Origin: Candidatus Poribacteria bacterium
GTDB lineage: Bacteria > Abyssobacteria > SURF-5
Direction of reading: 5' to 3'
NCBI GenBank assembly: GCA_016215705.1
Contig: JACRIR010000223.1
Location: 1 to 7,650, forward strand
Length of the DNA: 7,650 bases
Shown in pieces: positions 823 to 7,650 of this stretch. A program made the translations under genes and the position numbers. The first letter of the stretch is position 1, and every line of letters starts with the position of its first letter. The notes under the pieces were generated by a model. That model worked only from the letters and a program-made list of their open reading frames with translations, did no database searches and was not told the origin of the DNA.

Positions 823-851
823 TTGACTCCATCCCGGATTTCTGATATGAT
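823..851 (+). promoter_or_regulatory. Extended -10 promoter upstream of moeA
   Basis: TTGACT (823-828) and TATGAT (846-851) are separated by 17 bases, and a TG dinucleotide at 843-844 gives the extended -10 form TGATATGAT. The expected start of transcription is about 857-860. That leaves a leader of roughly 100 bases before the moeA ATG at 958. It probably drives moeA and mobB. Confidence 0.7.
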
Positions 852-868
852 TCCTTCGTTATTCAGAG

Positions 869-905
869 CAAGCGTCGGCGTATGTGTATGCATATGTCCG
901 GCTTG
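869..905 (+). promoter_or_regulatory. Structured 5' leader hairpin of moeA (possible aptamer)
   Basis: The RNA can fold into a long interrupted stem: 869-873 with 901-905, 876-878 with 898-900, and 879-884 with 891-896. That is 14 pairs including one G-U, broken by a two-base bulge (874-875) and a one-base bulge (897), with a six-base loop at 885-890. It lies between the predicted transcription start and the terminator-like hairpin. I do not recognise the conserved core of the Moco riboswitch or any other named class, so its role as a sensor is inference. Confidence 0.45.
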
Positions 906-946
906 GAGTTGAGAGCCCTCTTAACACCTCGAAGAGGGCTTGTTTT
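905..946 (+). terminator. Terminator-like hairpin with competing antiterminator, moeA leader
   Basis: AGCCCTCTT (914-922) pairs perfectly with AAGAGGGCT (932-940) across a nine-base loop and is followed by TGTTTT (941-946), a short U-rich tract. The left arm can instead pair upstream: GTTGAGA (908-914) with TCTTAAC (919-925), extended by GG (905-906) with CC (927-928) across one A-A mismatch. The two folds exclude each other, as in attenuators. The terminator stem ends 17 bases before the moeA ATG, and its right arm contains GAGGG, the only purine-rich ribosome-site-like stretch nearby. The same fold could therefore also affect translation. An alternative is a simple terminator for a short upstream transcript. 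Confidence 0.5.
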
Positions 947-957
947 GCGATTCGACC

Positions 958-2181
958 ATGATTACCTTTGAAGAAGCCAGAAAAATTGTGCTGGATTCGG
1001 TTCCGACGCTCGATATCGTTGAAAAACCGATCCTCGACGCGCTCGGCTCAATAGCTGCCGAGAATGCAGTTTCAACTGAACAGATACCGCCGTTCGACAA
1101 TTCCGCAATGGACGGCTATGCCGTGCGCGCCGAAGACACTCGAGGCTCTGCCGGCGAGAAGTCCGTCGAGCTTCGCGTGTTGATGGACCTGCCCGCCGGC
1201 CGACACACCGACCGCTCAGTCGGCAGGGGAGAAGCCATCCGCATCATGACCGGCGCGCCAATGCCCCCTGGCGCCGATGCAGTCGTTCAAGTTGAGCTTA
1301 CCGAAAAAGTCTCCGACAACTGTGTCCGCATTCTCGAGCCGCATGACAAGGGCGACAATATCCGCTTCGCAGGTGAGGACATTGCCGTCGGGCAAGATGT
1401 CATTCGCACAGGCGAAGAGATTACTCCTGCCAAGATCGGTCTGCTCGCGTCCATCGGAAGACCGCGAATTAAGGTCATCCGCAGACCGGTCGTTGCGATT
1501 CTTGCCACCGGCGACGAACTCCTCGAGGCGGGTGAGCCGCTCGCTCCCGGCAAAATCCGCAGCAGCAATTCTTACACTATGATTTCGCAGACTCGCATGT
1601 GCGGCGCTGAGCCGCTTTATCTCGGCATCGCGCGCGATACGATAGACGACGTTCGTTCGCATCTGCAAAAAGGCCTCTCAGCCGACGTGATCGTGAGCTC
1701 TGCAGGCGTGTCGGTAGGGGATTACGACTTCGTCAAGACCAGCCTCGAGGAACTCGGCGTGAGATTTATGTTTACAAGGGTCGCGATCAGACCCGGCATG
1801 CCGACCGTGTTCGGCCTGCTCCGGGGAAAGCCGGTCTTCGGGCTCCCCGGCAATCCGGTATCCTCGATGGTTATTTTTGAACAGTTCGTGAGGCCCGCCC
1901 TCCTGATGATGATGGGCAAGCGCAGGCTGTTCCGTCCCGAAGTCGATGCCATCCTCGAAGAAGATATCAAGAAAAAGCCCGAACGGGCGCACTTGCTCCG
2001 TGCCGCCGTCCGCAAAGAGGGCTCGGAATACTACGTGACAACGACTGGCCCGCAAGGTTCGGGCATACTGCTTTCAATGGACCTCGCGAATGGCCTGATA
2101 CTGTTTCCTCGTGGAGAGACTCTGAGGAAGAAGGGCGAGCGCGTCAAGGTTCAGTTGATAAATATGCCGGAGGTCGAGTAA
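958..2181 (+). CDS. moeA: Molybdopterin molybdenumtransferase MoeA
   Basis: MoeA inserts molybdate into adenylylated molybdopterin, releasing AMP and giving Moco, in the cytoplasm. The 407-residue protein has the full four-domain family length. Diagnostic segments are PPFDNSAMDGYAV (44-56), TGAPMPPGADAVVQVE (98-113), ILATGDEL (181-188), GVSVGDYD (250-257) and FGLPGNPVSSM (294-304). The C-terminal beta-barrel domain IV runs from about 325. The residue before GVSVG is A249, where I recall most relatives having glycine; the rest of the motif is intact. Start: ATG 958 gives the typical MITFEEA N-terminus. An in-frame TTG at 940 would add six residues but has no usable ribosome site. The site for 958 is itself weak, with GAGGG about 20 bases upstream inside the leader hairpin, consistent with leader control. 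The next gene, mobB, begins two bases after the stop. Nothing is broken. Confidence 0.97.
   Translation: MITFEEARKIVLDSVPTLDIVEKPILDALGSIAAENAVSTEQIPPFDNSAMDGYAVRAEDTRGSAGEKSVELRVLMDLPAGRHTDRSVGRGEAIRIMTGAPMPPGADAVVQVELTEKVSDNCVRILEPHDKGDNIRFAGEDIAVGQDVIRTGEEITPAKIGLLASIGRPRIKVIRRPVVAILATGDELLEAGEPLAPGKIRSSNSYTMISQTRMCGAEPLYLGIARDTIDDVRSHLQKGLSADVIVSSAGVSVGDYDFVKTSLEELGVRFMFTRVAIRPGMPTVFGLLRGKPVFGLPGNPVSSMVIFEQFVRPALLMMMGKRRLFRPEVDAILEEDIKKKPERAHLLRAAVRKEGSEYYVTTTGPQGSGILLSMDLANGLILFPRGETLRKKGERVKVQLINMPEVE
2169..2173 (+). promoter_or_regulatory. Ribosome binding site for the TTG start of mobB
   Basis: GGAGG lies inside the last codons of moeA, nine bases before the TTG at 2183. It supports this non-ATG start and implies translational coupling to moeA. 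Confidence 0.8.
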
Positions 2182-2895: not shown

Positions 2896-3738
2896 ATGCA
2901 CAAAATAGTCAGGACAGATACACTTGCTCCCTCGATGTTCCTGATGGAGGTTGAAGCCCCCAAGATTGCTGAAAAACGCAAGGCGGGCCAGTTCATCATC
3001 CTCAGGATCGACGAGAAGGGCGAACGGGTACCGTTCACGGTGGCCGATTCGGACACCAAGCGCGGCACTATCACTCTCATCTATCAGGTGGTCGGAAAAA
3101 CGACTGCTCAAATGTCATCGTTGCGCGCAGGCGATAGCCTGCTCGATATCTGCGGCCCGCTCGGCCAGCCCACTCATATCGAGAAATTCGGGACCGTCTG
3201 CTGCATTGGCGGAGGCACCGGCATCGCGATAGCTTATCCCATCGCAAAGTCGCTCGGCCAGGCCGGCAACAAGGTTCTCTCGATTCTTGGCGCGCGCACA
3301 AAGGAACTCCTATTCTACGAGAACGAGGTACGTGCCATCAGCAACGAGTTACTCATCTGCACCGATGACGGCAGCTACGGCCAGAAGGGCCTCGTTACTG
3401 ATATGCTCAAACAGCTCATCGATAGGGGCGAGCAACTGAAGCTGGTCGTCGCCATAGGCCCGGTTCCGATGATGAAATTCGTGGCGCGCATGACGAAGGA
3501 ATACAATATTCACACCATTGTCAGCCTTAACCCGATTATGATCGACGGTTCCGGCATGTGCGGCTGCTGCCGCGTTTCGGTCGGTGGCGCCACCAAGTTT
3601 GTCTGCGTTGACGGCCCCGAATTCGACGCGCATCAGGTGGATTTCGAGCTGCTCACCAAGCGCCTGGCCTCGTACAGGGAAAAGGAAGCTCAGGCATATG
3701 ACATGTATAAACATGCATGCAAGATAGGCAGGGGATGA
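2896..3738 (+). CDS. nfnA: NfnA: small subunit of NADH-dependent ferredoxin:NADP+ oxidoreductase
   Basis: This is the FAD and [2Fe-2S] subunit of the NfnAB complex, which couples NADPH, NADH and ferredoxin by flavin-based electron bifurcation in the cytoplasm; the NfnA FAD site handles NAD(H). The 280-residue protein has the ferredoxin-reductase fold. The FAD-binding RVPFT is at 44-48, the nucleotide-binding GGGTGIAIAYP at 105-115, CTDDGSYG at 155-162 and GPVPMMK at 188-194. The C-terminal [2Fe-2S] loop is DGSGMCGCCR (217-226) with C237. Family clusters use one Asp and three Cys; here D217 and C222, C225 and C237 are the likely ligands. C224 is an extra cysteine where relatives that I recall have alanine. 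A GGGAGGAG ribosome site lies just upstream. nfnB starts four bases after the stop. An alternative name is sulfide dehydrogenase subunit SudB; sequence alone does not separate the two activities. Confidence 0.94.
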   Translation: MHKIVRTDTLAPSMFLMEVEAPKIAEKRKAGQFIILRIDEKGERVPFTVADSDTKRGTITLIYQVVGKTTAQMSSLRAGDSLLDICGPLGQPTHIEKFGTVCCIGGGTGIAIAYPIAKSLGQAGNKVLSILGARTKELLFYENEVRAISNELLICTDDGSYGQKGLVTDMLKQLIDRGEQLKLVVAIGPVPMMKFVARMTKEYNIHTIVSLNPIMIDGSGMCGCCRVSVGGATKFVCVDGPEFDAHQVDFELLTKRLASYREKEAQAYDMYKHACKIGRG

Positions 3739-3742
3739 ACAC

Positions 3743-5221
3743 ATGGACCCAAAAGAAAAGATGAAAATACCGCGGCAGAAAATGCCCGAACAGAAACCGG
3801 AGGTCCGGAGAGGGAATTTCCAGGAAGTGCCATTCGGCTATCCGGAAGAAACTGCGATGCTCGAGGCCAAGCGGTGTCTCCAGTGCAAGAAGCCGGGTTG
3901 CATGAAAGGATGTCCGGTAGAGGTAAAGATTCCCGATTTTATACGGCTTATTGCCGAAGGAGACCATTGGGGCGCTATCAAGAAGATTAAGGAGACCAAC
4001 AGCCTGCCCGCCGTGTGTGGCCGAGTGTGCCCCCAGGAAAGCCAGTGCGAAAGCATGTGCATCGTCGGCAAAAAGGCCGAGCCCGTGGCCGTTGGGAGGC
4101 TCGAGCGGTTCGTCGCAGACCTCGAGCGCAAGTCGGGCAAAGTGTCAAAACCGCAGATCGCGCCGCCCACGGGTAAGAGAGTGGCCGTGGTCGGCTCCGG
4201 TCCTTCGGGGCTGACCGTAGCAGGCGACCTTTCTCGCATGGGCCACAAGGTTGTCATTTTCGAGGCGCTTCATAAGGCTGGCGGCGTACTCGTCTATGGC
4301 ATTCCCGAGTTCCGTTTGCCCAAAGAAATCGTGCAGGCGGAAATCAACTTTCTCCAGGACATCGGCATCGAAGTTGAGTGCAATACCGTCATCGGCAAAG
4401 CCGACACGCTCGACGAGCTCTTGAATAATGGATTCGACGCCGTCTTCGTTGGTACCGGCGCAGGCGCCCCGATATTTATGAACATACCGGGCGAAAACCT
4501 GATCGGGGTGTACTCGGCAAACGAGTATCTCACACGCTCGAATCTCATGAAGGCCTATCTGTTCCCCGAATACGATACGCCCATCCTGACTTCCAAAGTC
4601 GTCGTCGTGGTCGGTGGCGGAAACGTCGCGATGGACTCGGCGCGCACCGCCCTCAGGCTGGGCGCCAACGAGGTACACCTCGTCTATCGTCGTTCCAAAG
4701 AAGAGATGCCCGCGCGCACGGAAGAAGCGCATCACGCAGAGGAAGAAGGCGTCATATTCGATCTGCTCACAAACCCGCTTCGATATATCGGCGACGATAA
4801 GGGCAAATTGGTGGCCGTCGAATGCCAGAAGATGGAACTCGGTGAGCCCGACCAGTCGGGCCGCAGGCGGCCGGTTCCCATAAAAGGTTCGGAATTCCAG
4901 TTGGCGATAGACACCGCCATCGTCGCCATCGGCAACGGCCCGAATCCGCTCGTCCCTTCCACCACTCCGGACCTGAAACTCAATCGGAAGGGAAACATCG
5001 AGGCCGACCTCCGCAACTGCAAGACGAGCAAGCGTGGCGTATTCGCAGGCGGCGACATTGTCCGTGGCGCCGCGACCGTGATCCTGGCGATGGGCGATGG
5101 AAAAGTCTCCGCTCGCTCGATAGACGCTTATCTGAAAGACCCGGCCTGGTGGGATTTGCCGACCCCCGAGCCCGAGCCGCAGCCGGAGAAAGCGCCAAAA
5201 GCAACTAAGAAACCCGAGTGA
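3743..5221 (+). CDS. nfnB: NfnB: large subunit of NADH-dependent ferredoxin:NADP+ oxidoreductase
   Basis: NfnB carries the bifurcating FAD, the NADP(H) site and two [4Fe-4S] clusters of the NfnAB complex. It belongs to the glutamate synthase small-subunit family, so automatic pipelines often call it GltD. The 492-residue protein begins with a cluster-binding domain: C45, C48, C53, C57 and C92, C96, C102, C106. The FAD dinucleotide fold GSGPSG is at 151-156, followed by YGIPEFRLP (185-193). A second dinucleotide fold has VVGGGNVAMDSARTA (289-303) and VYRRSKEEMPA (314-324), and the C-terminal flavin motif is GVFAGGDIVRGAATVILAMGDG (split at 432-441 and 442-453). CAGGGGA, seven bases upstream, supports the ATG at 3743. 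The last 20 or so residues are a Pro-Glu-Lys tail outside the conserved fold. Four bases separate it from nfnA, so the pair is one operon. The absence of a glutamate synthase large subunit and the presence of nfnA favour Nfn over GltD. Confidence 0.94.
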   Translation: MDPKEKMKIPRQKMPEQKPEVRRGNFQEVPFGYPEETAMLEAKRCLQCKKPGCMKGCPVEVKIPDFIRLIAEGDHWGAIKKIKETNSLPAVCGRVCPQESQCESMCIVGKKAEPVAVGRLERFVADLERKSGKVSKPQIAPPTGKRVAVVGSGPSGLTVAGDLSRMGHKVVIFEALHKAGGVLVYGIPEFRLPKEIVQAEINFLQDIGIEVECNTVIGKADTLDELLNNGFDAVFVGTGAGAPIFMNIPGENLIGVYSANEYLTRSNLMKAYLFPEYDTPILTSKVVVVVGGGNVAMDSARTALRLGANEVHLVYRRSKEEMPARTEEAHHAEEEGVIFDLLTNPLRYIGDDKGKLVAVECQKMELGEPDQSGRRRPVPIKGSEFQLAIDTAIVAIGNGPNPLVPSTTPDLKLNRKGNIEADLRNCKTSKRGVFAGGDIVRGAATVILAMGDGKVSARSIDAYLKDPAWWDLPTPEPEPQPEKAPKATKKPE

Positions 5222-5285: not shown

Positions 5286-5329
5286 TAGAAATCCCCCCTT
5301 GGAGACTGTCCCGTAATTGTGGATTTAAC

Positions 5330-5357
5330 GTAGGGGCACGGCGCGCCGTGCCCCTAC
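5330..5357. repeat. Perfect 28-bp palindrome, GTAGGGG family
   Basis: GTAGGGGCACGGCG is followed immediately by its exact reverse complement, CGCCGTGCCCCTAC. It lacks a following T-run, so it is not a typical intrinsic terminator, though such a hairpin downstream of nfnB could stabilise the mRNA end. Confidence 0.85.
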
Positions 5358-5380
5358 ATCCCCAAAAATCGCCATCCTCT

Positions 5381-5404
5381 GTAGGGGCGCAGCATGCTAC
5401 GCCC
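5381..5404. repeat. Imperfect GTAGGGG-family hairpin
   Basis: GTAGGGGCG opens a hairpin in which GGGCG (5385-5389) pairs with CGCCC (5400-5404) and AGC (5391-5393) with GCT (5396-5398), with one C-A mismatch. It shares its first eight bases, GTAGGGGC, with the unit at 5330 and its first ten with the unit at 7579. Confidence 0.7.
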
Positions 5405-5471
5405 GCAGAACCACAATTATAGGACAGTTTCTTTATCCCCCTTTGACAAAGGGGGAAAGAGCGGGATTTTC

Positions 5472-5622: not shown

Positions 5623-5641
5623 CTTTTGGCCTTCTTCAACT

Positions 5642-5683
5642 ATAAACCATAAACCATAAACCATGAACCATAAACCATAAACC
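5642..5683. repeat. 7-bp tandem array (ATAAACC)x6
   Basis: Six uninterrupted copies of ATAAACC are present, the fourth being ATGAACC. The array ends 25 bases before the mobA ATG. Slippage could vary its copy number and shift spacing upstream of mobA, but no promoter elements are seen across it. Confidence 0.9.
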
Positions 5684-5708
5684 CCAACCGATCTTCCTGG
5701 GTGGAACC

Positions 5709-7497: not shown

Positions 7498-7533
7498 CAC
7501 AGCGCGGCATAGCCGCAACCAAATCGCCATATC

Positions 7534-7602
7534 GGGCGCGATGAATCGCGCCCCTACGGAAATCCCTCGTATACTCCTGTAGGGGCGCAATTCATTGCGC
7601 CC
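7534..7602. repeat. Inverted pair of self-complementary GTAGGGGCGC arms
   Basis: The arms 7534-7557 and 7579-7602 are reverse complements at 22 of 24 positions, around a 21-base centre. Each arm is also a hairpin by itself: GGGCGCGAT (7534-7542) with ATCGCGCCC (7545-7553), and GGGCGCAAT (7583-7591) with ATTGCGCCC (7594-7602). The family is the same as that at 5330 and 5381. The remaining downstream DNA to the window end shows no supported gene. Confidence 0.8.
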
Positions 7603-7650
7603 GTGTGAGTTTCATACGGTGTGTCATGAGAATCGCGACAGGAATTCAAG

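Follow-up and report, generated by a model that had tools for sequence, protein, structure and literature searches.

A promoter and a terminator-like hairpin kept in position upstream of moeA in three genera of one bacterial family: a candidate attenuator

The Moco/Tuco riboswitch family RF01055 controls molybdenum and tungsten cofactor genes, its P3-lacking members being linked to the tungsten cofactor (Regulski et al., 2008, PMC2408646), and in E. coli the moaA leader carries an RF01055 riboswitch and gives Rho-dependent 3′ ends (PMC7815308). Here we analysed the leader of a moeA gene in a window of 7650 bases (the whole stretch of DNA under study, which is one complete contig, G000:C161, of an Abyssubacteria-type MAG) and compared it with the corresponding loci of two further genomes, G001 and G002 (Ca. 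Abyssobacteria SURF_17); together with the window's own genome, G000, these represent three genera of one family. Like the E. coli moaA leader, the leader studied here is an RNA that precedes a Moco biosynthesis operon; unlike it, it has no aptamer, and the Rho-dependent ends belong to the E. coli leader. With terminator-type leaders of biosynthetic operons it shares a promoter of its own, a short leader and a U-tailed hairpin before the first gene, kept in position in the three genera; however, we identified in it no aptamer, no leader peptide with a Shine-Dalgarno (SD) sequence and no protein site, its antiterminator pairing is not conserved, and its U tract is weak.

The genes of the window run in the order greA, moeA, mobB, two oxidoreductase genes, mobA and moaA, and moeA is the first gene of the Moco operon (Table 1). 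By family search, the first of the two oxidoreductase genes encodes an FAD/NAD-binding protein with a DHODB-type Fe-S domain, and the second a Fer4_20/pyridine nucleotide-disulphide protein. This pair (2896-5221), lying between mobB and mobA within the Moco cluster, resembles NfnA/NfnB or the subunits of sulfide dehydrogenase, and its first gene is also found 3′ of mobB in G001 and G002.

Table 1. Coordinates of the features in the window and of the RF01055 members at other loci of the three genomes.
Feature	Position	Strand	Basis or description
Extended -10 sigma-70-type promoter, TTGACT-N17-TATGAT, TG before the -10	823-851	+	pattern search and conservation
Approximate transcript start and 5′ end of the leader	858-868	+	inferred from spacing to the -10
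Bulged 5′ stem (the 'sensor stem' of the earlier note)	869-905	+	present by folding, not conserved
Alternative pairing, 905-914 with 919-928	905-928	+	folding; 9/10 pairs
Terminator-like hairpin, AGCCCTCTT-9 nt loop-AAGAGGGCT	914-940	+	folding, shuffles, comparison with G001 and G002
Short U tract, TGTTTT	941-946	+	sequence; U-rich in all three genomes
moeA	958-2181	+	Pfam MoeA_N, MoCF_biosynth, MoeA_C; first gene of the Moco operon
Moco operon: moeA, mobB, two oxidoreductase genes, mobA, moaA	moaA start 6459		
RF01055, locus L079	1222-1347 and 1501-1625		
RF01055, locus L082	1501-1627	-	
RF01055, locus L080	1501-1622		
RF01055, locus L078	1501-1620	-	

An earlier note on this DNA, made from the letters of the window, had placed an extended -10 promoter upstream of moeA. 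We found it at 823-851, where it is the sole promoter-like match between positions 600 and 1300 (0.3 expected), and recovered it at the corresponding place in G001 and G002. The TTGACT-17-TATGAT pattern is a real promoter class of these three genomes (52, 35 and 36 occurrences in G000, G001 and G002, respectively, vs. 0 in the reversed control), and the copy before moeA is 71-80% identical over 35 nt among the window, G001 and G002, vs. 16-36% farther upstream. The gene on the other side of this promoter is greA in the window and in G001; in G002, it is a TetR-like ORF (named by eye) on the opposite strand. Since the upstream gene differs in G002 while the promoter and the hairpin described below both stay, we conclude that the promoter and hairpin belong with moeA.

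The same note had described a 9-bp terminator-like stem, 914-922 with 932-940 and then TGTTTT, which is indeed present and is kept in position in the three genera. Its nine pairs have a folding energy of -13.2 kcal/mol in the window and are followed by TGTTTTGC; across the three genera the energies are -13.2, -14.2 and -9.7 kcal/mol (the last in G001), with 5, 6 and 6 T in the first eight bases, and a T-tailed hairpin of equal length arose in 1.7%, 2.2% and 9.2% of the shuffled leaders of the window, G002 and G001, respectively. The hairpin lies 17-21 nt upstream of the moeA start across the three genomes (17 nt in the window). The promoter and the U-tailed hairpin are thus conserved in position upstream of moeA, at matching places in all three genera; among control promoters of this class in the same genomes, 3 of 26 are followed by a T-tailed hairpin under a looser criterion. 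Taking an intrinsic terminator to be a G+C-rich hairpin with a U tract between the promoter and the first gene, all three genera show this arrangement, with an imperfect U tract: it is short in both the window (tail score 2.65) and G001, and in both it is interrupted, and the extended form of the window hairpin falls below our strict threshold of 5 T in 8 bases. The hairpin is single copy in the window's genome, and a search of all three genomes for copies of the leader or hairpin returned none except the moeA leaders of the window and G002. Among moeA orthologues outside the family, we found no comparable hairpin directly before the start; one of them (L034) carries an unrelated hairpin at -77 to -46. 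A promoter, ~90 nt and then a terminator-like hairpin might delimit a separate, self-terminated small RNA, in which case moeA would depend on read-through for its expression, and this we regard as very unlikely, given that the body of such an RNA is unconserved among the three genomes and that the hairpin sits so close to moeA in three of three.

It may also be that the hairpin has no regulatory role, being either a 5′ stem that stabilises the mRNA or a neutral remnant of common descent. The three genomes come from one family, the covariation of the stem (2 pairs changed on both sides, in a comparison of three sequences only) was equalled by 53 of 500 shuffles and is not significant, and G001 has a much altered structure, weaker and open to two alternative drawings, all of which would fit such a remnant. 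However, the stem arms of the window and G002 are 89% identical, vs. 40% for the leader 5′ of the arms, and the hairpin and its U-rich tail are both retained in position. In this pair of genomes all eight inner base pairs match, and the outer one has undergone a compensatory change from A-U to U-A, with changes in the loop (6/9) and in the flanking sequence. On this balance we consider the absence of any role unlikely.

From the order of stem, switch and terminator before a Moco gene, the earlier note had gone on to suggest ligand-controlled attenuation, conceivably through a distinct sensor for Moco, molybdate or tungstate. What stands of that layout is a leader with a possible attenuator, its promoter and hairpin being kept in three genera; ligand sensing is not supported. 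The bulged stem at 869-905, proposed as the sensor, does form when the window sequence is folded; G002 has a different stem there, and in G001 no stable stem occurs and the feature is essentially absent. Segment 858-905 shows 25-47% pairwise identity among the three genomes, with 70-86% at the moeA coding start. The proposed switch, an alternative pairing of 905-914 with 919-928, is likewise present in the window, where 9 of its 10 pairs form, with one G-U and a single A-A mismatch, and a 7-pair core of it appears in the minimum free energy (MFE) fold; when we sought a counterpart in G001 and G002, as would be expected of a conserved antiterminator, neither had a clear one. The lack of conservation or covariation in relatives, which the note had named as grounds for refuting its idea, applies to the sensor stem and the switch pairing and not to the terminator hairpin. 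The MFE fold corresponds to neither of the two proposed states exactly, since the 5′ end of the leader pairs with the 3′ arm of the hairpin and the U tract. We also obtained a consensus fold of the three leaders, in which a 5′ helix shows a few scattered compensations, and rejected it because it rests on an unreliable alignment.

In a riboswitch, it is usually the ligand-binding aptamer that shows the strongest conservation. Here conservation is lowest in the segment preceding the hairpin, and the stem of that segment has not been retained, which makes a ligand-binding aptamer unlikely. As the note had recommended, we searched the leader against Rfam, and no family matched: there was no match in the window, none for positions 640-1100 at E<=10, and none at the moeA loci of G001 and G002 at E<=1. 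Its remark that the leader lacks a Moco riboswitch core agrees with this, as RF01055 gave no match to the leader even at E<=10; moreover, the ~55 nt between the start site and the hairpin would not accommodate the 135-position aptamer. A new riboswitch class sensing Moco, molybdate or tungstate would be in keeping with a leader that precedes a Moco operon, that has alternative pairings in the window sequence, and that over its ~100 nt (858-957) folds better than 200 of 200 shuffles (z = -3.87). Nevertheless, the region that would do the sensing is unconserved in sequence and structure across three genera, the leader has no homologue in Rfam or elsewhere in the three genomes, and the tungsten genes of these genomes are already under a known riboswitch of the Moco family. 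The reading of the leader as a new class is not supported, and we consider it extremely improbable.

That known riboswitch was found when RF01055 was searched across the whole genomes (membership being a covariance-model match of at least 36 bits), with matches elsewhere and none at moeA. All three genomes contain it, in five members before tupA/tupB-like genes (named from sequence): the window's genome has three, a tandem pair before a tupA-like gene and one before a tupB-like gene, and G001 and G002 have one each, before tupA-like genes. The four members that we aligned lack the P3 stem and are thus of the Tuco type. This organism thus carries the known riboswitch at its genes for tungstate uptake and lacks it at moeA. 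After the aptamer, 5 of 5 members have a slightly varying terminator hairpin, GCCAGTTCC...GGGACTGGC, along with a T-rich run, a point of likeness to the moeA leader. Because Tuco-type riboswitches with terminators stand at tungstate-transport genes, it is plausible that transcription of Mo/W genes in these genomes is also stopped early, ahead of the coding region. On the other hand, T-tailed hairpins in the three genomes are not enriched after stop codons (3/88 vs. 21/722 windows inside ORFs), and so give no support for common intrinsic termination in these bacteria, riboswitch platforms apart.

We also weighed a role in translation, in which the hairpin hides an SD-like AAGAGGG or protects a U-rich standby site, and so controls ribosome loading on moeA, possibly by way of a short overlapping frame at 945. 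The moeA start has no SD sequence in the window (-2.1 kcal/mol) or in G002 (-1.5), and energies at mobB, the two oxidoreductase genes, mobA and moaA are -5.7 to -10.3 kcal/mol (-5.7 to -10.8 for most neighbouring genes). In the window, AAGAGGG forms part of the hairpin's 3′ arm and precedes by 6 nt a TTG at 945 that is out of frame, and a TTG or GTG stands exactly 13 nt before moeA in three of three genomes (SD energies of -6.3, -6.3 and -4.7), opening a frame out of frame with moeA that stops 14-17 nt inside it. Against this, ~19 nt separate the SD-like arm from the start of moeA, too great a distance for direct use, and G001 has its own GGGGA near that start. The start-like codon of G001 is, moreover, a non-homologous base triplet, and with three sequences only the constant spacing of 13 nt may therefore be chance. 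Such a translational element is the chief alternative, though in our view rather unlikely. The frame in question, at 945-971 in the window, is very short (LRFDHDYL), overlaps the moeA start and takes its SD-like sequence from the 3′ arm. A longer candidate leader peptide at 882-971 was rejected: the frame is open in the window, G002 and G001, but has no SD sequence in any genome, shares neither a start nor regulatory codons, and suffers frame-shifting differences after the hairpin.

Our best reading, to which we give even odds, is that the hairpin is a partial or regulated intrinsic terminator, which would make the moeA leader a candidate attenuator of the ordinary kind; attenuation at this leader is possible. 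On that reading, the moeA operon would be transcribed from a promoter of its own, probably starting near 858, through a leader of ~100 nt, and the leader would close in the terminator-like hairpin 17 nt before the start codon. A fraction of the polymerases would most likely stop near 945 while the remainder read into moeA, such that the hairpin would set or modulate, via read-through, the output of moeA and the Moco genes that follow. Should this read-through be regulated, then a protein, translation or the speed of transcription would be a likelier trigger than a direct RNA sensor, which is unlikely because the sequence preceding the hairpin varies too much for an aptamer. If the hairpin does terminate, the moeA operon would be controlled apart from the riboswitch-controlled tungstate transporter genes, and this separation, if true, would be a small addition to what is known of Mo/W regulation. 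A more specific proposal, that tungsten uptake is governed by Tuco-type riboswitches and the molybdenum-cofactor operon by a separate, aptamer-less attenuator that answers molybdenum status through a protein or translation, is speculative and quite improbable; were it true, it would represent an undescribed mode of moeA regulation.

The window also contains several repeats. Between greA and moeA lies a 23-nt inverted repeat (669-691 and 774-796; TCTTCACCGCAAAGGCGCAAAGA), whose arm is a dispersed repeat with, at up to 2 mismatches, 95 copies in the window's genome, 69 in G002 and 15 in G001. Intergenic palindromic repeats of the type 'taggggcgcg...cgcgcccctac' occupy 5320-5430 and 7530-7605, and at 5640-5685, 5′ of mobA, 'ataaacc' units form a short tandem repeat ('cataaaccataaaccatgaaccataaaccataaacc').
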